Source: a virus
DNA length: 26,008 nucleotides
Reading direction: 5' to 3' (one strand)
IMG/VR virus record: IMGVR_UViG_3300027908_000046
Span: 1 to 26,008 of that record
Shown: positions 3,368 through 25,645 of the stretch, piece after piece
Layout: every line of letters starts with the position of its first letter
Numbering within the stretch: position 1 is the stretch's first letter
Translations under genes and position numbers: made by a program
The notes under the pieces: model-generated
Told to the model about the DNA's origin: nothing
The model's database searches: none
The model's input: only the letters and a program-made list of their open reading frames with translations

Positions 3368-3910
3368 ATGACCCGCCTGTTCGTCGCCGGATTTGATATC
3401 GCTACTTCGACCGGCTGTGCTGACGGGTTCACCACGTCGAACCGGCCGCGCTGCTGGACTTGGAGTCTGGCGGCGGCCGGCAAGTTCAGGCCGGCGAAGC
3501 TCGCATTGCTGCGCGACTACTGTGACCGGTACTTCGCCGAGAATCCGGTCGACCTGTTCTTCTACGAGCAGGGCTTGCGCACTGCGGTCGCGGCCGAGAT
3601 CGGCATGACAGAGGAGACCGTCGCGCTCCTGCGCGGCGCGATCGGCGTGGCCGAGGCGTGCGCCGCCAAGGCGCGCATCCCGCATATTCAGGCAATCGAT
3701 GTGCAAGACGCGCGCAAGCACCTGACCGGGCAGCGCACGTTCCCGAAGGGAAAGGCCAAGGACGCCGTGTTCCGGTGGTGCCATACGCTGGGCTGGGACC
3801 CGAAGAACCTGGACGAGTCCGATGCCTGCGCCATCTGGTCCTACGGGTGCGGGACCGCCAATCCGCTGGGCGCGGTCGGCGTCACCCCATTGTTCGCGGG
3901 GCGCATGTGA
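3368..3910 (+). CDS. RuvC-like Holliday junction resolvase (RNase H fold)
   Basis: 180 residues. The first strand carries VAGFDIATSTGCA with Asp10 as the first catalytic acid, the FFYEQGL strand gives Glu67, and LDESDACAIW near the C-terminus gives Asp149/Asp152, the usual RuvC-type acidic set. Known relatives cleave branched DNA in phage replication and recombination, often before packaging. The stop overlaps the GTG of the next gene (GTGA), so the two are coupled. A general RNase H-fold nuclease remains possible. Confidence 0.75.
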   Translation: MTRLFVAGFDIATSTGCADGFTTSNRPRCWTWSLAAAGKFRPAKLALLRDYCDRYFAENPVDLFFYEQGLRTAVAAEIGMTEETVALLRGAIGVAEACAAKARIPHIQAIDVQDARKHLTGQRTFPKGKAKDAVFRWCHTLGWDPKNLDESDACAIWSYGCGTANPLGAVGVTPLFAGRM

Positions 3911-4530
3911 AATTGCCTCCAGACCATGTTTTCGCCGGGCTTGAAGCCCGCGGATATCGCGCCCTGATGTGCGACCCGCCCTGGCATTTCCGCGCTAGGA
4001 CCGCCCTCCAAATGAGCAACTGGACTAGTCAGCGCGACGCGGAGAAACATTATCGCGTCATGGGTGTCGACGACATTTCGTCGCTGCCGGTCGCATCGCT
4101 GGTCGACCCGGCGGGATGCCACCTGTTCCTGTGGACAACAGGTCCATGCCTGCCGCAGGCATTCGAGGTCATCAAGGCGTGGGGATTCCGCTATTCTGCG
4201 GTTGCGTTCACGTGGGTCAAGCTCAAGAAATCCTACGATGCGCACCAACTGCGGTGCCTGCCGACGGCGGAGGCCGACCTTCACGTCGGACTGGGCCTGA
4301 CGACCAGGAAGAACGCCGAGTTCTGCCTTCTAGCGCGCCGCGGCAACTGCAAGCGCGAATCAAAGAAAGTCCGCGAGATAATCATGTCGCCGGTGCGCGA
4401 ACACTCCCGCAAGCCGGACGAGGCTTACGCGCGCGTGATGGAATACTGCTCCGGTCCTTATCTGGAGATGTTCGCCAGGACGCAGCGACCGGGATGGACC
4501 TGCTGGGGCAACGAGGTTGAGCGGTTGTGA
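3907..4530 (+). CDS. MT-A70 family adenine methyltransferase
   Basis: 207 residues from GTG 3907; this start overlaps the upstream stop and keeps the catalytic motif DPPW at residues 23-26 well inside the protein, whereas the next ATG (3967) would place it at the extreme N-terminus. The remainder fits the family: LFLWTTGPCLPQAFEVIKAW, FTWVKLKK, GLGLTTRKNAEFCLLARRG and a C-terminal PGWTCWGNE. Phage relatives methylate adenine N6 in DNA, which can block host restriction. Target sequence unknown. A hairpin follows the gene. Confidence 0.85.
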   Translation: MKLPPDHVFAGLEARGYRALMCDPPWHFRARTALQMSNWTSQRDAEKHYRVMGVDDISSLPVASLVDPAGCHLFLWTTGPCLPQAFEVIKAWGFRYSAVAFTWVKLKKSYDAHQLRCLPTAEADLHVGLGLTTRKNAEFCLLARRGNCKRESKKVREIIMSPVREHSRKPDEAYARVMEYCSGPYLEMFARTQRPGWTCWGNEVERL

Positions 4531-7522: not shown

Positions 7523-7887
7523 GCAAGCGCAAGGCGATCAAGCGCAAGGAGTACCTCGCCGCGGCGCTGGCGTGCCTCCTGCCGCAGGATCAGCGGGACG
7601 CGCTGCGGGCGGCCAGGGTCCCGGCCGAGGCTGTCCTGCGGCTGTTCACGCCAGACCACATCGTGCTGCACTGCTTCGAGACGCCCAGGCGTGATGAATG
7701 GCACAATTTGACGCCGGCGCTCCGGCCCGCGCACGCGGAGAAGAGCCGCCGCGACACGAAGATCGCCGCCAAGGTCAAGCGCCTGCGGGGCGAGACCTGC
7801 GCCGGGCCGAAGAAGAAGATCCCGCAGCGGCGCAACCCGTGGCCGCCGAAGGGGTCGCGGACGTTTTTCAATCGGGCCGCCGAATGA
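7519..7887 (+). CDS. HNH-endonuclease-like protein, possibly degenerate
   Basis: 122 residues. The C-terminal two thirds resemble the second half of small phage HNH proteins: DHIVLHCFE, then NLTPALRPAHAEKSRRDTK, then a basic tail ending KKKIPQRRNPWPPKG. The Cys residues usual before the first His are missing, replaced by a helix (residues about 10-40), so nuclease activity is doubtful. It could be a structural or DNA-binding derivative. The start overlaps the upstream stop and the end overlaps the cytosine methyltransferase ATG. Confidence 0.55.
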   Translation: MSKRKAIKRKEYLAAALACLLPQDQRDALRAARVPAEAVLRLFTPDHIVLHCFETPRRDEWHNLTPALRPAHAEKSRRDTKIAAKVKRLRGETCAGPKKKIPQRRNPWPPKGSRTFFNRAAE

Positions 7888-8777
7888 GTCCGCTTGCCGT
7901 CGATCTTTTCTGCGGGCTTGGCGGGTGGACCGAAGGCCTGCTCGCCGAAGGCTACGACGTCATCGGCTTCGACATCGAGCGCCACCAATACGGCGAGCAC
8001 CGTTATCCCGCGCAGCTCGTCGTCCAGGACGTTCTCACGCTCCACGGATCGCAATTCCGCAATGCCGCGCTGATCGTCGCCTCGCCGCCCTGCCAAGCCT
8101 ACAGCTACCGGGCGATGCCCTGGAAGCGCGCCAAGGCTCTCCCGCCGCCGGACAACACGCTGTTCGAGGCATGCTTCCGCATCCAGCGGGAGGCGAACGA
8201 AGCGAACGGGTGCGACCCCAAGGGGTACTGCATCGAGTGCGACGGAACAGGCAACTTTTATCGCCACGATGAGGACGGCGATTTCCTTGAGTGTGACGAA
8301 TGCCGCGCCACTGGGCGTAAGAGATATATCCCGCTGATCGTCGAGAATGTGCGCGGTGCTCAGAAATGGGTTGGGCGCGCGCGGTGGTCGTACGGCTCGT
8401 TTTACCTTTGGGGAGACGTGCCGGCGCTGATGCCGATTACCATTCGAGGCTTGGCCGTGAAGGCGCCGGGAATGAACCGGAGCGACCAGACCAAGCGCGG
8501 GCAGGACTTCACGCGATTAGCTGGCCAGCATGCGATGGGTCTCAAAAACGCCGGGCCGAAGTGGGATCCCGTTACCAAGAGCGGCGCATACGGCATGAAG
8601 CGCTGGACCAATCCAGATGAAGGCATCAAGTGCGGCGGCGATTGGTTCGGGCCTGGCGTGAAATCAGAAATGCGAAACCACCATTCAGGCTCGACGTCGC
8701 ACAAAGCCGCCAGCGCCATGATCGCCAAGATCCCGTTGCCGCTTAGCCGGCACATCGCGGCGACGTTCCGGTCTTGA
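7884..8777 (+). CDS. Cytosine-C5 DNA methyltransferase with zinc-motif insertion
   Basis: 297 residues. Motif I is DLFCGLGGW (from residue 7), motif IV ASPPCQAYS with catalytic Cys70, motif VI IVENV (Glu154-Asn155), and the C-terminus ends LSRHIAATF, the usual motif X region. Between motifs IV and VI there is CIECDGTG (116-123) and CDECRATG (137-144), two DnaJ-like CxxCxGxG elements that probably bind zinc. The target-recognition part is short. It would methylate cytosine C5 in phage DNA and could start a hypermodification pathway with the glycosyltransferase at 11758. ATGA overlap with the HNH-like gene. The next promoter begins over its stop codon. Confidence 0.85.
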   Translation: MSPLAVDLFCGLGGWTEGLLAEGYDVIGFDIERHQYGEHRYPAQLVVQDVLTLHGSQFRNAALIVASPPCQAYSYRAMPWKRAKALPPPDNTLFEACFRIQREANEANGCDPKGYCIECDGTGNFYRHDEDGDFLECDECRATGRKRYIPLIVENVRGAQKWVGRARWSYGSFYLWGDVPALMPITIRGLAVKAPGMNRSDQTKRGQDFTRLAGQHAMGLKNAGPKWDPVTKSGAYGMKRWTNPDEGIKCGGDWFGPGVKSEMRNHHSGSTSHKAASAMIAKIPLPLSRHIAATFRS

Positions 8778-8815: not shown

Positions 8816-8841
8816 AGGGCCACGGCCCGCCGCAAGGAGAA
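8816..8841 (+). promoter_or_regulatory. Conserved hairpin-plus-RBS leader, copy 1
   Basis: The 26 bases before the 8846 gene hold GGGC-CACG-GCCC (a possible 4-bp hairpin with tetraloop), then GCCGC and a strong AAGGAGAA ribosome site, four bases from ATG. Nearly the same 26 bases occur on the minus strand at 14478-14503 (24 of 26) and 14304-14329 (25 of 26). The change in the middle falls in the loop. Confidence 0.55.
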
Positions 8842-11086: not shown

Positions 11087-11761
11087 ATGGCGAGGGCCGC
11101 GAGCGTCAAGCGAAAGCCGAAACAGAACGGCCAGATCGACCTACGAGACCTGACGATAGAACAGTGGCCTATTGAACGGTTGCGAGGCTACCCCGGAAAT
11201 CCTCGCAAGAACGAGCATGCCGTCGACCGGATGTGCCAGGCGATCCTAGAGTTCGGCTTCCGTATCCCTATCGTCGCAAAATCGGACGGCCTGATTGTAG
11301 ACGGTCATCTACGTCTCAAGGCGGCTATAAAGATCGGTCTCAAAACTGTGCCAATCGCGCTCGCGGACGATCTCACCGAGAACCAAATCAAGGCATTTCG
11401 GCTGCTCGCAAATCAGTCTTCGTCGTGGGCGGAGTGGGACATGCCGTTGCTCAAGATAGAACTGGAAGGTCTAAAGCTCGCAGACTACCCCCTCGAATTA
11501 ACGGGATTTGAACAAGTTCAACTCGTCTCGTTTTTATCCGGGATATCCGATCCGAACGCTGAATGGAGGGGGATGCCTGAATTCGATCAGAAGGACAAAT
11601 CAGCTTTTCGGACGATACCGATTCACTTCAAGGATCAGAATGCCGTCGACAAGTTCGCCAAGCTAGTCAAGGCGAAGATCACAGAGGAGACCCGCTATCT
11701 GTGGTTCCCCGAAATCGAAATCGAGACCTACGCCGACAAGCGCTACAAGGGGAAGAAATGA
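11087..11761 (+). CDS. ParB-N-terminal-domain protein, DNA-modification type
   Basis: 224 residues. The ParB/sulfiredoxin-like nuclease fold is shown by NPRKN (38-42), the FGFRIPIVAK strand and GLIVDGHLRLKAA (68-80) with the family's DGH. The C-terminus (FRTIPIHFKDQNAVDKFAKL, then ETYADKRY) is a separate small domain. In phages such proteins often sit next to DNA methyltransferases, TET oxygenases and base glycosyltransferases rather than acting in partition. ATGA overlap with the glycosyltransferase supports a joint role. Its third positions are visibly less GC-rich than the neighbours, suggesting both genes arrived together. Confidence 0.8.
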   Translation: MARAASVKRKPKQNGQIDLRDLTIEQWPIERLRGYPGNPRKNEHAVDRMCQAILEFGFRIPIVAKSDGLIVDGHLRLKAAIKIGLKTVPIALADDLTENQIKAFRLLANQSSSWAEWDMPLLKIELEGLKLADYPLELTGFEQVQLVSFLSGISDPNAEWRGMPEFDQKDKSAFRTIPIHFKDQNAVDKFAKLVKAKITEETRYLWFPEIEIETYADKRYKGKK

Positions 11762-12648
11762 ATCCCGCGTTCCCGATCTACATCGTCTCCAAAGGCCGAT
11801 GGGAAAGTCGTCTGACGAGCAAGGCGTTCGAGGCGATGGGCGTTCCCTATTCGATTGTTGTCGAGGAGCAGGAATATAAGGACTATTGCGAGGTCATCGA
11901 CAAGGCGAAGGTGCTCGTCCTCGATAAGGCCTACCAGCGCGACTACGACGCTTTCAGCGACCTCGGAGTGAAGGAGAGCAAGGGTTCTGGGCCGGCTCGC
12001 AACTTTGTCTGGGATCACGCACAGGCGCATAGCGCTGCGTGGCACTGGACGGTAGACGACAATATCAAGGGATTTTATCGGTGGAACAAGAACCTGAAAG
12101 TACAGGTCCAGGACGGAACAGTTCTCAAATGCATGGAGGACTTCGTTCAACGCTACGACAATATCGCGATGGCCGGCCCGAACTATTTCATGTTTGCGTC
12201 GCGCAAGAGCAAAGCTCCGCCACTCCAAGTCAATACCCGTATCTATTCCTGCAACCTAATCCGTACAGACGCTCCGTTCCGCTGGCGAGGTCGTTACAAC
12301 GAGGATACAGACCTCTCTCTGAGGATGCTCAAGGCAGGGTGGTGTACGGTTCTGTTCAATGCCTTCCTGCAGCGTAAAGAGGTAACGCTGACGATGAAGG
12401 GCGGCAATACGGACACGATCTACAAAGGCGGCACGCTTCCGAAGTCCCAGATGATCGTCGACATGCACCCCGACATCTGCCGCCTCGCTTGGCGGTTCGA
12501 CCGTGCCCACCACTTCTGCGACTACAAGCGGTTCCAGCATGGCCTAATAAGAAAGGCCGGGATCGATGTCCCGGCCGAGGTCGACAACTACGGTATGGAA
12601 CTCGTGCAGATCAGGCCGCCGACTCCATCTTGCGACGATAGAACTTGA
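11758..12648 (+). CDS. TET-associated-type DNA glycosyltransferase (TAGT-like)
   Basis: 296 residues from ATG 11758 with AGGGGA upstream. GT-A fold features: FPIYIVSKGRW at the N-terminus, a helix and strand ending YSIVVEEQEY, a WTVDDNIKGFY motif with Asp100-Asp101 in the usual metal/nucleotide-sugar position, and YNEDTDLSLRML with Glu182-Asp183-Asp185 as the likely catalytic region. This matches the phage and protist glycosyltransferases that accompany TET/JBP oxygenases and add sugars to hydroxymethylated bases; the substrate here is an inference. The 3' end overlaps the convergent minus-strand gene by 38 bases. Confidence 0.7.
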   Translation: MNPAFPIYIVSKGRWESRLTSKAFEAMGVPYSIVVEEQEYKDYCEVIDKAKVLVLDKAYQRDYDAFSDLGVKESKGSGPARNFVWDHAQAHSAAWHWTVDDNIKGFYRWNKNLKVQVQDGTVLKCMEDFVQRYDNIAMAGPNYFMFASRKSKAPPLQVNTRIYSCNLIRTDAPFRWRGRYNEDTDLSLRMLKAGWCTVLFNAFLQRKEVTLTMKGGNTDTIYKGGTLPKSQMIVDMHPDICRLAWRFDRAHHFCDYKRFQHGLIRKAGIDVPAEVDNYGMELVQIRPPTPSCDDRT

Positions 12649-14303: not shown

Positions 14304-14329
14304 TTCTCCTTTCGGCGGGCCGTGGCCCT
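14304..14329 (-). promoter_or_regulatory. Conserved hairpin-plus-RBS leader, copy 3
   Basis: On the minus strand this has the same GGGC-CACG-GCCC hairpin, GCCG and AAAGGAGAA as the leader at 8816-8841, differing at one base of 26. It provides the ribosome site of the membrane-protein gene starting at 14295. No copy of the operator motif accompanies it. Confidence 0.5.
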
Positions 14330-14477: not shown

Positions 14478-14503
14478 TTCTCCTTGCGGCGGGCCTCGGC
14501 CCT
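14478..14503 (-). promoter_or_regulatory. Conserved hairpin-plus-RBS leader, copy 2
   Basis: Minus-strand copy of the leader at 8816-8841, 24 of 26 bases identical; the two differences lie in the hairpin loop (CGAG instead of CACG), while the stem and AAGGAGAA are unchanged. It lies directly between operator C and the 14472 start codon, in the same order and orientation as at site B. Confidence 0.55.
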
Positions 14504-16723: not shown

Positions 16724-17107
16724 ATGATCGTTCGTGATCGACCGAGCAGGACGAGAAATGAAGACATCGCAGAGATGGCACGAAATGGCGTCGGCTTCGC
16801 CCAGATCGGCAGGCACTTCGGGATCACCCGAGAGCGTGTGCGTCAGATTGCGAACTCACGCGGCGTCAAGCACGTGGCCGGCACGAAGATGAGGGACAGG
16901 CGCGAGGCCATCGAGCAGCGTCGGGCCGCGCGCGCCGAACTTGCCGCAAGAGTAAGGTACGAAATTGAGGGCAACGGCCTATCCTGGAAGGCGGCGGCCG
17001 CAAAGCTCGGTCTCAACAGAGGCTCAATAGAGAAAATCATCATCAGGAATGGCATCCGTAGTCGCCATCACAGCGGCAATCCCAATTTCAGAAAGGCGCG
17101 CGCATGA
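16724..17107 (+). CDS. Double-HTH DNA-binding protein (sigma region-4-like)
   Basis: 127 residues from ATG 16724 with AGGGAGG upstream. Residues about 13-46 (IAEMARNGVGFAQIGRHFGI, then TRERVRQIANSRG) match sigma-70 region 4.2-type HTH sequence; a second HTH lies at about 86-110 (LSWKAAAAKLGLNRGSIEKI). A charged helix joins them. It may be a transcription regulator of the late genes or the real small terminase. ATGA overlap with the next microprotein. Confidence 0.6.
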   Translation: MIVRDRPSRTRNEDIAEMARNGVGFAQIGRHFGITRERVRQIANSRGVKHVAGTKMRDRREAIEQRRAARAELAARVRYEIEGNGLSWKAAAAKLGLNRGSIEKIIIRNGIRSRHHSGNPNFRKARA

Positions 17108-17202
17108 CTTGGGCCTGGTCCGAGTTCTTCGCCGGCGCGGCGTTCTGCGCCCTCCTCGGCCTATGGGCGGCGAACGCGATCGCGTGGATGGTGGGGCACT
17201 GA
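17104..17202 (+). CDS. 32-residue TM microprotein (WxWxEFFA type)
   Basis: ATG 17104 overlaps the upstream stop and its TGA overlaps the methyltransferase ATG (TGATG). The product is MTWAWSEFFAGAAFCALLGL followed by WAANAIAWMVGH: a short aromatic N-terminus and one TM helix. A paralogue with the same Trp-x-Trp-x-Glu-Phe-Phe-Ala start lies at 20719-20829. Function unknown. Confidence 0.6.
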   Translation: MTWAWSEFFAGAAFCALLGLWAANAIAWMVGH

Positions 17203-18308
17203 TGGGCGTCAGGATCGTTACGGGAGACGTGCGCGAGCGGCTACGGGGACTTGCCGACAATAGCGTTCACGCCTGCATTACATCGCCCCCTTATTGGGGG
17301 TTGAGGTCATACATTGCTGAAGGTGACCCGCTCAAGCCGCTCGAAATTGGGCTGGAGCAGACTTATAGCGAGTACATCGAAAAAATGGTGGCTGTGTTCC
17401 GCGAGGTGCGGCGGGTGCTGCGCGCGGATGGAACGCTGTGGCTCAACCTGGGCGACAGCTACAACAGCGGGACGGCCTTCAATCAGGCAAAGCAAAGTGG
17501 TCTCGACAGCCCTCCGAGATATGGCGAGGCGAGCCAAGCGGGTTGGGGAAAGCACCGCTCATTGGCGATCGGCCTCAAGCCAAAAGACCTCTTCGGTATC
17601 CCTTGGCGCGTCGCATTCGCGCTCCAGGCCGATGGCTGGTGGCTCCGCCAGGACATAATTTGGAGCAAACCGAATCCCATGCCGGAGAGCGTCACAGATC
17701 GCTGTACCAAGGCGCACGAGTATGTATTTCTGCTGAGCAAGAGCGAGCGGTATTATTACGATGCGGAAGCGATTCTCGAAGATTGTAGCCCGAACACCCA
17801 TGCGCGCCTTTCGCAGAATGTGCAGGCCCAGATTGGCAGCGAGCGGGCTCACGCTGGAGGTAAGACCAACGGGAATATGAAAGCGGTCGGGCGCGATAGC
17901 TGGAAGGGGTCGACCTTCGATGGCCCCCGCGACCTCGTTGTACGCCCCGATACAGGCCGCAAGAGAGCATCGGCCGGCAGCGGCATCAAGAATAACGACA
18001 GCATGGATGCGGCCCTCGCGATCATGCCACTCAGGCGCAACAAGCGCTCCGTCTGGGAAGTCTCCACGCAGTCTTTCTCCGAAGCCCACTTCGCCACCTT
18101 CCCCCCAGCCCTGATAGAGCCCTGCATCCTTGCGGGCTGCCCAAAGGGCGGAACGGTGCTCGACCCCTTCGGCGGCGCCGGCACCACTGGCCTCGTCGCC
18201 GACCGCCTCCAGCGCGACGCCATCCTCATCGAACTAAACCCCGAATATGCCGCCATGGCGCGCCGACGGATCGATGGGGACGCGCCCCTGTTCTCGGCCG
18301 CCGAATGA
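17202..18308 (+). CDS. DNA methyltransferase (amino, TSPPY type)
   Basis: 368 residues from ATG 17202. Motif IV TSPPYWGLR is at residues 27-35 and motif I (VLDPFGGAGTTGL, DPFGG at 321-325) near the C-terminus, the motif order of beta-class N4-cytosine or N6-adenine methyltransferases. The target domain lies between (about 60-300). It is placed between packaging genes with couplings at both ends. Third-position GC is visibly lower than in TerL, so it may be a recent insertion. It probably protects phage DNA from restriction; recognition site unknown. Confidence 0.85.
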   Translation: MGVRIVTGDVRERLRGLADNSVHACITSPPYWGLRSYIAEGDPLKPLEIGLEQTYSEYIEKMVAVFREVRRVLRADGTLWLNLGDSYNSGTAFNQAKQSGLDSPPRYGEASQAGWGKHRSLAIGLKPKDLFGIPWRVAFALQADGWWLRQDIIWSKPNPMPESVTDRCTKAHEYVFLLSKSERYYYDAEAILEDCSPNTHARLSQNVQAQIGSERAHAGGKTNGNMKAVGRDSWKGSTFDGPRDLVVRPDTGRKRASAGSGIKNNDSMDAALAIMPLRRNKRSVWEVSTQSFSEAHFATFPPALIEPCILAGCPKGGTVLDPFGGAGTTGLVADRLQRDAILIELNPEYAAMARRRIDGDAPLFSAAE

Positions 18309-20713
18309 ACGCCCTCCCCCCGTTCGCCGCGTTCGGCGACGAGATCAGCCGCCTAGAGGTCAGGCTCCCGATCCTCCACGCGGACCAGGTCGGTGCCTAC
18401 AACACGCCGGGGCGGTTCCTCGCGCTGCGGTGCGGAAGGCGGTGGGGGAAAGCAATATCAATTCAAGAGGTTATTCCGACCCCATCAGGATGGGTCACGC
18501 TGGAGCATGTTCATGCCGGCGATCAAGTCTTCGATGAGCGCGGAAAGGTCTGCACCATAACATTCGTGACCGACATCATGCTCGGCCTGCCGGCCAACGA
18601 GGTCGAGTTCTCCGACGGGACCATCATCATGGCCTGCGATGACCACCGCTGGCTGACTACGACTCATCAGGAGCGCAAGAACACCGCGCGGGGATATGAG
18701 CAGGGGCCGCAGATCAGGACGACGCGGACGATTCGGGAAACGCTGACCTATGGCAAGCGCCGGGACAACAATCATGCCATTGCCAGTTCCAGGCCGATCG
18801 AATGCCCACCGATCATTCCGATCTTGCCGCCTTACGTTCTTGGCGTGTGGCTGGGTGACGGCCATTCAAATGGTCCGAGATATACCAAGCCGGACGTGGA
18901 GATAGCTGAGCAAGTGGCTTTGGAGGGCGTCTCGGTTCATGAATTGAAAGTGACGGATGGAAAGTGCCGACTGTGGTCGATGGCTGGAGAGCAGGAAGGC
19001 GGTCTGATAATCTCTCGTCTCCGAGCATTGGATGTCCTGGAAAACAAGCATATCCCGCCGTCCTATCTGCGCGGGTCGATCGCCCAGCGTGTTGCTCTGC
19101 TCCAGGGCCTCATGGACACGGACGGCTATTCCGATGACAAGGGAACTTGCGAGTTCTGCTCGATCATCGAGCGCCTGGCGATCGACGTCCTGGAATTGAC
19201 GAGGTCGCTCGGGCTGCGGTCCTATCTCGTCACTGGACGCGCGACGCTTAACGGCAAAGATTGCGGTCCAAAATACCACGTCAAGTTCACGACCTCGTTC
19301 CCGGTTTTCAGGCTTCCTCGCAAGCTCAAGAAGCTCCAGAGCCGCATCCAGCGGTTCAATATGGAGCAGCGCATGATAGTCGGCGTTCGGCCGCGCGAGA
19401 GCGTACCGATGCGCTGCATCACAGTCGACAGCCCGTCCCATCTCTATCTCGTCAGCAGGGCGTTCATCCCGACGCACAACACCGCCTTCGACATCGCCCT
19501 CGCAGGCTCGGCCGCGCTCGGCTACAACCGCCGCTACGGCGGCAACGTCGGCTGGTTCGCCCCGGAGAACAAAAAGCTCCGCGAGGCCTACCGCGACCTC
19601 CACGAGTGCCTCGGTCCCGTGATCTCGTCCTCATCCAAGAACGATGGCGAGATCCACCTCATCACCGGAGGCCGCATCGACTTCTGGTCGCTCGAGGACG
19701 AGGCGGCCGGCCGGTCCCGCAAGTACCACCTCGCGATCATCGACGAGGGGGCGTTCACCAAGCCGCGCGTGATGATGGACACCTGGGAGAAGGCGATCAA
19801 GCCGACTCTCTTCGACTTCGGCGGCCAGGCCGTGGTTAGCTCGAACACCGCGGGCGAGGACCCGCAGAACTTCTTCTGGCAGATTTGCAACGAGCCGCGC
19901 CACGGGTTCGCGCAGTACCACGCGCCGACCCGCAACAACCCGCACCTGCCGGAGCGCGACCCTGCGGACAGCGACGAGGTGCACGCCGCCAAGCGGGCGG
20001 AGGCGCTCGCGGCGCTGATCCGGGACAACCCGCCCAATGTCTACCGCCAGGAATACCTCGCCGAGTTCGTCGACTGGTCCGGCGACGCGTTCTTCCAGCG
20101 CGACAAGCTGCTGGTCGACCGCCAGCCGGTGGTCGTGCCTTTCCTCATGGACACGATCTTCGCGGTGATCGACACCGCAGTGAAGACCGGCAAGGAGAAT
20201 GACGGGACGGCGGTAGTCTACTTCGGCGTCGTGTCGAGCGGCGCGCAGCGCACGCTGCTGCTGCTGGACTGGGACGTCGTCCAGATCGAGGGCGCCTTCC
20301 TCGACACCTGGCTGCAGACGGTGTTCTCGACCCTCGACGGCATGGCCGGCGACTACCGCCTGCGCGTGCCGCACATCGGGGCGTTCATCGAGGACAAGGC
20401 GAGCGGGATGGTGCTGCTCCAGCAGGCCAGGAACCGCGGCTGGCCGGCCCACCCGATCGACTCCAAGCTGACCGCGATGGGCAAGGACGAGCGGGCGATC
20501 TCGGTGTCGGGCTACGTGCACCGCGGCCTGGTCAAGTTCACCGCGCCGGCCTACGACCGGGTGTTGACCTACAAGGGCACGTCGGGCAACCATCTCCTCA
20601 TGCAGGTGACCGGCTTCAGGATCGGCTCGAAGGACGCCGGGCGGCAAGATGACCTTCTTGATTCGTTCACATACGGGCTGGCGATCGCGCTCGGCAACTC
20701 GCAGGGATTCTGA
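18305..20713 (+). CDS. Terminase large subunit interrupted by an intein
   Basis: 802-residue precursor: N-extein 1-49, intein 50-392, C-extein 393-802, giving a 459-residue mature TerL. The motor cuts and packages phage DNA. Walker A GRRWGK-T is split exactly by the intein; Walker B is HLAIIDEGAF (Asp480-Glu481). The nuclease domain has AVIDTAVKTGK (Asp623), FIEDKASG (Glu696-Asp697) and RQDDLLDSF (Asp782-Asp783), the RNase H-like acidic set. Without splicing the ATPase site is destroyed, so splicing should be essential. ATGA overlap with the methyltransferase. Confidence 0.92.
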   Translation: MNALPPFAAFGDEISRLEVRLPILHADQVGAYNTPGRFLALRCGRRWGKAISIQEVIPTPSGWVTLEHVHAGDQVFDERGKVCTITFVTDIMLGLPANEVEFSDGTIIMACDDHRWLTTTHQERKNTARGYEQGPQIRTTRTIRETLTYGKRRDNNHAIASSRPIECPPIIPILPPYVLGVWLGDGHSNGPRYTKPDVEIAEQVALEGVSVHELKVTDGKCRLWSMAGEQEGGLIISRLRALDVLENKHIPPSYLRGSIAQRVALLQGLMDTDGYSDDKGTCEFCSIIERLAIDVLELTRSLGLRSYLVTGRATLNGKDCGPKYHVKFTTSFPVFRLPRKLKKLQSRIQRFNMEQRMIVGVRPRESVPMRCITVDSPSHLYLVSRAFIPTHNTAFDIALAGSAALGYNRRYGGNVGWFAPENKKLREAYRDLHECLGPVISSSSKNDGEIHLITGGRIDFWSLEDEAAGRSRKYHLAIIDEGAFTKPRVMMDTWEKAIKPTLFDFGGQAVVSSNTAGEDPQNFFWQICNEPRHGFAQYHAPTRNNPHLPERDPADSDEVHAAKRAEALAALIRDNPPNVYRQEYLAEFVDWSGDAFFQRDKLLVDRQPVVVPFLMDTIFAVIDTAVKTGKENDGTAVVYFGVVSSGAQRTLLLLDWDVVQIEGAFLDTWLQTVFSTLDGMAGDYRLRVPHIGAFIEDKASGMVLLQQARNRGWPAHPIDSKLTAMGKDERAISVSGYVHRGLVKFTAPAYDRVLTYKGTSGNHLLMQVTGFRIGSKDAGRQDDLLDSFTYGLAIALGNSQGF
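18452..19480 (+). mobile_element. Class 3-like intein with LAGLIDADG homing endonuclease
   Basis: 343 residues, in frame in TerL. It begins AISIQEVIPTPSGW, with Ala rather than Cys or Ser as residue 1, and ends FIPTHN before Thr+1. The class 3 triplet is visible: Trp67 (DDHRWLT, block B with His65), Cys322 (MRCITVD, block F) and Thr341 before His342-Asn343. The two LAGLIDADG motifs are VLGVWLGDG (Asp136) and LLQGLMDTDG (Asp224), so the homing endonuclease may be active. Its codon use is less GC-biased than the exteins, consistent with transfer. Confidence 0.88.
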
Positions 20714-24577: not shown

Positions 24578-24780
24578 CCGAGCGCCAGGCCGCCATCGTC
24601 GAGTGCTATCGCCAGAAGCAGAGCCTCCGGCTGGTCGCGCAGGAGTTCGGCAGCAAGAAGCCGACGATCCACGGTATCATCAGGCGGTTCGCGCCGCACC
24701 TGATGCGCAAGTCGGGCATAACGTACAAGTGGGAGCGCCCGAAGCGTCGGAATCGTAGGCAGCGAAGTTCCGATGGATGA
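24574..24780 (+). CDS. Small HTH protein
   Basis: 68 residues from a GTG overlapping the previous stop (GTGA). Residues about 4-35 (ERQAAIVECYRQKQSLRLVA, QEFGSKKPTIHGII) match a homeodomain-like HTH of the resolvase or transposase type, followed by a basic tail. No catalytic domain is present, so it is a DNA-binding protein only. Its target is unknown. Confidence 0.55.
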   Translation: MTERQAAIVECYRQKQSLRLVAQEFGSKKPTIHGIIRRFAPHLMRKSGITYKWERPKRRNRRQRSSDG

Positions 24781-25645
24781 CCTCACTGATGTTGACGGTC
24801 CGGACGGTCATGCCTCAAAAGGGGTGATGATTCGCATTATCTCCCTCGGCGCCGGCGTCCAGAGCACCACCATGGCGCTGATGGCCGCGCATGGCGAGAT
24901 CGGGCCGATGCCGGATTGCGCGATCTTCGCGGATACTGGCTGGGAGCCGAAAGCGGTTTACGATCATCTTGCGTGGTTGCGCTCGCCAAACGTGCTGCCG
25001 TTCCCCGTCCATGTCGTAAGCAAGGGAAACATCCGCGAGAACATCCTCGCGCGGCGCAACACGACTGGCGGGCGGTTCGCGTCAATCCCCTTCTTCACGG
25101 TGAACCCGAACGGCAAGGAGGGTATTGGGCGCCGGCAGTGCACCAGCGAATACAAGCTCACGCCGATCATGCACGAGTTGCGCCGCTTGTTGGGCAAAGG
25201 ACCACGCGACCGCATCCGCGCCGGCTCGGTGGAGGTGTGGATCGGCATCAGCCTTGATGAGGCCATCCGCAAGCGCCCAGCGCGGCAGCAGTGGATGACG
25301 AACCGCCATCCCCTGCTCGAGCCATCTACGCGCATGACGCGCAAGGACTGCCTGCTGTGGCTTGATGAGCGCGGCTATCCCTGTCCGCCGAAGTCATCCT
25401 GCGTGGGATGCCCGTTCCATTCAGACGCCCACTGGCGCGACATGCGTGACGCTGCCCAGGACGAATGGGCCGACGCGGTCGCAGTCGACAGGGCGATCAG
25501 GCTAGGCAACGCGCGCGGCATGCGCCCCATCGAGTACATGCACGATAGCCGCAGGCCGCTCGACGAGGTCGACCTGCGAACGGATGACGAGGCTGGCCAG
25601 CCCGACCTTTTCAACAATGAGTGCGAAGGAATGTGCGGAGTGTAG
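24773..25645 (+). CDS. PP-loop / PAPS-reductase-like protein
   Basis: 290 residues from ATG 24773, or 272 from ATG 24827; neither has a strong ribosome site. The family starts at IISLGAGVQSTTMALM (residues 22-37), the PP-loop for ATP. Later RRQCTSEYKLTPI is typical of PAPS-reductase-like phage proteins, and CVGCPFHSDAHWRDM near the C-terminus supplies a Cys pair. Relatives activate or transfer sulfur or adenylate substrates; phage versions are often linked to nucleic-acid modification, but the substrate here is unknown. It splits the portal from the next head gene and looks like an inserted accessory gene. Confidence 0.75.
   Translation: MDDLTDVDGPDGHASKGVMIRIISLGAGVQSTTMALMAAHGEIGPMPDCAIFADTGWEPKAVYDHLAWLRSPNVLPFPVHVVSKGNIRENILARRNTTGGRFASIPFFTVNPNGKEGIGRRQCTSEYKLTPIMHELRRLLGKGPRDRIRAGSVEVWIGISLDEAIRKRPARQQWMTNRHPLLEPSTRMTRKDCLLWLDERGYPCPPKSSCVGCPFHSDAHWRDMRDAAQDEWADAVAVDRAIRLGNARGMRPIEYMHDSRRPLDEVDLRTDDEAGQPDLFNNECEGMCGV

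Follow-up and report, generated by a model that had tools for sequence, protein, structure and literature searches.

The large terminase (TerL) gene of a virus known from a metagenomic contig is interrupted within its Walker A motif by an in-frame intein, which parts the Lys of the motif from the following Thr and is very probably a mobile element of class 3 that encodes a LAGLIDADG homing endonuclease. The assignment to class 3 is based on the signature residues, the profile scores, and the predicted fold. The window analyzed here, 26,008 bases long, comprises an entire IMG/VR virus record. Being a metagenomic contig, it does not imply that the virus is viable.

The terminase gene and the position of the intein

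The TerL frame is open across 802 codons (Table 1). Residues 1–49 and 393–802 of the precursor make up a phage large terminase, and residues 50–392 constitute the intein. The protein is recognized as TerL by its Walker A motif and by terminase homology along the spliced length: the spliced sequence matches PHROG 2 (terminase large subunit) with E 3.8e-29, and the top relative among viral contigs (L002) shares 61% identity with it over residues 1–459. The Pfam Terminase_6N score is slightly under the cut-off of that profile. The junctions read CGRRWGK/AISIQEV and IPTHN/TAFDIAL, and this placement puts the intein between the Lys and the Thr of the Walker A motif. The sequence-only reading had placed the insertion between the Lys and Thr of GRRWGKT, and the junction is indeed GRRWGK/T; the boundaries that it gave for the intein and the positions of the signature residues were likewise borne out to the base.

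Table 1. Positions of the terminase gene, the intein, and their parts in the window (aa numbering within the intein unless indicated)
Feature	Positions	Strand	Remarks
Large terminase (TerL) gene with in-frame intein	18305–20713	+	precursor 802 aa; 459 aa after splicing
N-extein	18305–18451	+	49 aa; terminal GRRWGK is Walker A up to Lys
Class 3 intein	18452–19480	+	343 aa, Ala1 to Asn343; precursor aa 50–392
Splicing domain, N-terminal part (approximate)	18452–18667	+	aa 1–72; aligned to 6rix residues 2–70; model
Trp67 codon, block B position 12 (B:12)	18650–18652	+	invariant in 74/74 rows
LAGLIDADG homing endonuclease region and linkers (approximate)	18668–19366	+	aa 73–305; Pfam Hom_end
LAGLIDADG motif 1, VLGVWLGDG, Asp136	18836–18862	+	aa 129–137; Asp kept in 71/74 relatives
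LAGLIDADG motif 2, LLQGLMDTDG, Asp224	19097–19126	+	aa 216–225; Asp kept in 72/74 relatives
Splicing domain, C-terminal part (approximate), blocks F and G	19367–19480	+	aa 306–343; aligned to 6rix residues 113–145
Cys322 codon, block F position 4 (F:4)	19415–19417	+	expected first nucleophile; 73/73 rows reaching the position
Thr341-His342-Asn343, end of block G (Thr341 is G:5)	19472–19480	+	73/73 rows reaching the position
+1 Thr codon	19481–19483	+	first C-extein residue
C-extein	19481–20713	+	starts with Walker A Thr (+1 residue)

A search for the host revealed no near match among phages, and in 385 genomes sampled from the class of a Sphingomonas locus, it gave a single good, partial terminase match. 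The databases searched may omit the records closest to this one, and nearer copies are possible.

Assignment to class 3

Class 3 inteins do not need Cys, Ser, or Thr at residue 1, and the intein starts with Ala, as do 117 of the 159 relatives examined. Position B:12 is occupied by Trp67, two residues after His65, and position F:4 by Cys322, which is aligned with the corresponding Cys in the class 3 inteins 6rix and 6bs8. Thr at G:5 is followed by His-Asn, and the +1 residue is Thr; all 159 relatives carry Ser or Thr at +1. This set of residues agrees with the features published as defining class 3, a +1 Ser or Thr among them (PMC5222942, PMC3196547), and upholds the initial claim that, with Ala as residue 1, the Trp, the Cys, and the Thr all stand in class-defining positions.

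Ala at position 1 is also a property of class 2 (KlbA-type) inteins, whose +1 residue makes a direct attack on the first junction. However, class 2 inteins have Ser at G:6 and Asp at F:4 and use Cys+1 (PMC4031507), instead of which His, Cys, and Thr, respectively, are present here. The probability of a class 2 intein is thus negligible, and, as judged from these residues, this class may be considered excluded.

In a PDB sequence search, the nearest solved sequences were class 3 DnaB inteins from Mycobacterium chimaera and M. smegmatis, with E values between 1.2e-23 and 5.3e-22; the Trp, the Cys, and the Thr-His-Asn triplet of the window intein pair one to one with theirs. DnaE, the highest-ranking class 1 mini-intein in the same search, had E 0.0086. 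As neither NCBIfam nor Pfam gave a match above cut-off for the splicing domain, class profiles of this domain were custom-built. The class 3 profile gives the intein 168.2 bits, within the range of held-out class 3 inteins (160–218), while the class 1 profile gives it 0.5 bits, compared with 173–256 for class 1 inteins left out in turn. The comparison, which had been proposed together with the initial reading and could have placed the intein in class 1, thus came out for class 3, and so did the tree.

These scores also bear on the idea that the intein belongs to class 1 but has lost the original residue 1 in favor of Ala, so that it does not splice or is capable of cleavage only. Residue 1 is certainly not a nucleophile, as such an intein would require, and Ala1 does not satisfy the class 1 demand for Cys, Ser, or Thr at this position. 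But apart from the profile scores, Cys at F:4 and Trp at B:12 agree with all class 3 relatives, and genuine class 1 inteins inserted there start with Cys1, carry Asp in position F:4, and are set apart from the window intein by a branch with full support, so degenerate class 1 is extremely improbable.

In a 74-row alignment, Trp is found in 74/74 rows, and Cys and Thr in 73/73 rows that extend that far; the members were recruited with class 3 queries, and these counts describe conservation within the family rather than give independent proof of mechanism. An AlphaFold model of the intein built on the 74-sequence alignment reached a pLDDT of 95.2 and replaced an earlier four-sequence model (pLDDT 54), which was set aside. 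The model overlays the solved class 3 DnaB inteins (6bs8, 6rix, and 6riy) at 1.2–1.8 Å, with Z 21.8 and about 42% identity; in the case of 6bs8, 125 of 125 residues are overlaid at 1.2 Å and 42% identity. Residue 2 is Ile, and residues 5–7 (QEV) differ from the usual ALALDTP start; since, in addition, the class 3 score of 168.2 bits is near the bottom of the held-out range, the splicing efficiency is uncertain.

Homing endonuclease, empty sites, and mobility

The intein fold contains two in-frame LAGLIDADG motifs, each with its catalytic Asp, and the Pfam Hom_end score is 23.2 bits against a cut-off of 21.1. In the model, the entire intein, endonuclease included, resembles PI-SceI (Z 27.3 over 316 residues). 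Lys199, located between the motifs, is conserved in 73 of 74 rows. The LAGLIDADG pair had been described as intact-looking, and it is: the frame is open, with both Asp136 and Asp224 kept.

An Arthrobacter class 3 intein in which the F:4 Cys is absent has been described as a pseudogene (PMC3196547). A dead remnant of this sort, neither splicing nor cutting and turning the terminase gene into a pseudogene, is nevertheless very unlikely here, given the 802-codon open frame with all splicing residues and both LAGLIDADG Asp residues retained, and the exteins, whose conserved motifs align with relatives free of gaps.

GRRWGKT, or a variant close to it, runs on uninterrupted in at least 71 of the 80 viral relatives of the terminase. 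The intein-free site, looked for at the same codon as the initial reading had advised, is therefore real and is the common state among the terminases compared. A search of viral contigs for GRRWGK followed by Ala revealed four terminases with class 3 inteins at this junction (L094, L096, L097, and L106), and a fifth intein of this kind was found in a Chloroflexi genome (L202). In the intein tree, the window intein and these five form one group (SH-aLRT 93). In the terminase tree, the class 3 carriers are scattered, the window terminase sits among intein-free ones, and the terminases of L096 and L202 belong to a different family from that of the window. The class 3 label changes five times on the terminase tree, and strong branch support makes at least three of these changes unavoidable; each tree comes from a quick search and leaves some forks unresolved.

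With the sites mostly empty and the carriers scattered, the intein looks mobile, in line with what the sequence-only reading had suggested. Such a patchy distribution would be expected of homing into one conserved site. The GC content at third codon positions (GC3) was considered as a mark of recent arrival, as it is 72% in the intein and 92–94% in the exteins, but it is a weak one, since every other carrier tested has some gap of this kind.

Two intein classes at one site

The search for GRRWGK followed by Cys brought up nine terminases in which a class 1 intein occupies the identical Walker A position (L109, L110, L111, L114, L116, L117, L119, L121, and L122). These inteins have Cys1 and class 1 blocks, score at most 8.3 bits with the class 3 profile, and are unrelated to the window intein by profile; the four of them placed on the tree lie on the opposite side of the fully supported branch. 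In the terminase tree, L096 and L202 group with L110, L111, L119, and L121 in unresolved order. From the profile scores and the supported branch, two unrelated intein lineages with different chemistry share one position, apparently within one terminase family.

With a length of 136 aa, the class 1 inteins of L117 and L122 are mini-inteins. L111 and L116 apparently bear a second intein further on, ending in ISHN/TPKGYANLYDVYK.

Occurrence of class 3 inteins

The intein as a single-sequence query gave no match in viral contigs; its relatives there were recovered by an alignment-based scan, according to which at least 573 viral stretches encode relatives of this class 3 intein. A scan of bacterial genomes yielded 325. 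The description of class 3 as the rarest class in the sequence-only reading is not supported in view of these at least 573 relatives, since class 2 is narrower, its members known by 2014 all being orthologs of a single archaeal intein (PMC4031507).

Of the 80 viral loci kept, 75 have GK/S or GK/T at the junction, and the P-loop niche of class 3 inteins is derived from this viral count, with each viral host protein presumed to carry a P-loop there. The bacterial GK/S or GK/T count was set aside because it includes 27 loci with LEGK dCTP deaminases, which are not P-loops. In these deaminases (TIGR02274, E 2e-61), class 3 inteins of Chloroflexota and Actinomycetota are inserted at LEGK/SSLGRLG (e.g., L206 and L211; L204–L216 and similar), a non-P-loop Lys/Ser site seen in 27 of 80 genome loci.

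Proposed splicing and homing

Splicing of class 3 inteins depends strictly on the F:4 Cys, with a branched intermediate at block F. According to the established knowledge of the intein family, Cys322 would attack the Lys–Ala1 bond after translation, the N-extein would be transferred to Thr+1, and Asn343 would cyclize. The exteins would thereby be joined into a 459-aa terminase with the whole GRRWGKT loop, and the unspliced motor would presumably be inactive. The endonuclease is expected to cut intein-free terminase genes at the conserved sequence, whereupon the element may be copied in. The site is likely favored because it is conserved and because imprecise loss of the intein would ruin the motor.

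Since the insertion splits the ATP-binding loop, splicing might also serve as a conditional switch: if slow or redox-sensitive, e.g., via Cys322, it could hold back terminase activity until late infection, so that packaging would be switched on post-translationally. A mycobacterial DnaB helicase intein is reported to act as an oxidative stress sensor (PMC6195587), which provides an analogy. Late-gene control by splicing, which the sequence-only reading had put forward as an inference, is suggested here by analogy only. A switch of this kind is unlikely here, as the sequence itself gives no sign of it, at least 71 of the 80 close relatives do without any intein, and GK/S or GK/T is the normal niche of class 3 inteins, for which homing alone accounts.

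Other features of the record

Three DNA methyltransferase genes are present in the 26-kb record, namely, MT-A70 (3658–4530), C5 cytosine (7698–8777), and N6_N4 (17049–18308), the last sharing four bases with the beginning of the terminase gene. A ParB-like gene (11087–11761) is followed by a gene for a TET-associated glycosyltransferase (11701–12648; PF20691, E 3e-43), and this may be a sign of DNA hypermodification. A phosphoadenosine phosphosulfate reductase-like gene (24773–25645; PHROG 424, E 1.3e-48) lies downstream of the portal gene.

A 26-nt element, AGGGCCNNGGCCCGCCGNAAGGAGAA, occurs three times, at 8816–8841 (+), 14304–14329 (−), and 14478–14503 (−), each time directly 5′ of an ATG, and comprises a GC hairpin and then a Shine–Dalgarno sequence. 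It did not recur in any of 100 shuffled sequences and looks like a repeated gene leader. Start-associated sequences occur in some phages, and the element resembles them; its core has no exact match in IMG/VR.

Comparison with known inteins

Although well founded, the case is an ordinary one: there is nothing unusual about the place, the class, or the endonuclease, and both terminase class 3 inteins and inteins between the P-loop Lys and Thr have already been published or deposited. General knowledge of inteins is unchanged by it. It adds one more terminase family to the known holders of class 3 inteins and, together with its relatives, reveals that a single class 3 lineage specific for this site is distributed among two or more terminase families. 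The occurrence of class 3 and class 1 inteins at one position allows two splicing chemistries to be compared, as nature provides them, within the same extein context.

Among solved structures, 6bs8 (M. smegmatis DnaB) and 6rix and 6riy (M. chimaera DnaB) are class 3 inteins that share with the window intein the same Trp-Cys-Thr (WCT) signature, a P-loop type site, and the splicing-domain fold, but they are mini-inteins without an endonuclease and reside in a helicase instead of a terminase. The mycobacteriophage inteins TerL1-a to TerL1-e likewise interrupt a phage large terminase in its ATPase domain (PMC5050341); TerL1-a splits the P-loop after Lys and before Thr, and three others, TerL1-c, -d, and -e, were treated as class 3 in 2016 (PMC5050341). 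Their hosts, however, are Terminase_1 proteins of actinobacterial phages, and the window terminase belongs to another family.

The class 3 signature and a GK/S or GK/T junction are also found in, among others, the phages JeTaime, Vibrio 489E54-1, Clavibacter CMP1, Microcystis Mwe-JY05, and Rhodobacter RcKickapoo, which differ from the window in terminase family, P-loop sequence, and intein lineage; the Microcystis phage protein is annotated as hypothetical, and the others were deposited as terminases. The identity of the window intein to phage entries does not exceed 38%. Further counterparts are the five class 3 inteins at the same GRRWGK/T site (four in viral contigs, one in Chloroflexi), which belong to the same intein group with 46–52% intein identity, whereas the terminases in which they reside share no more than about 48% identity with that of the window.
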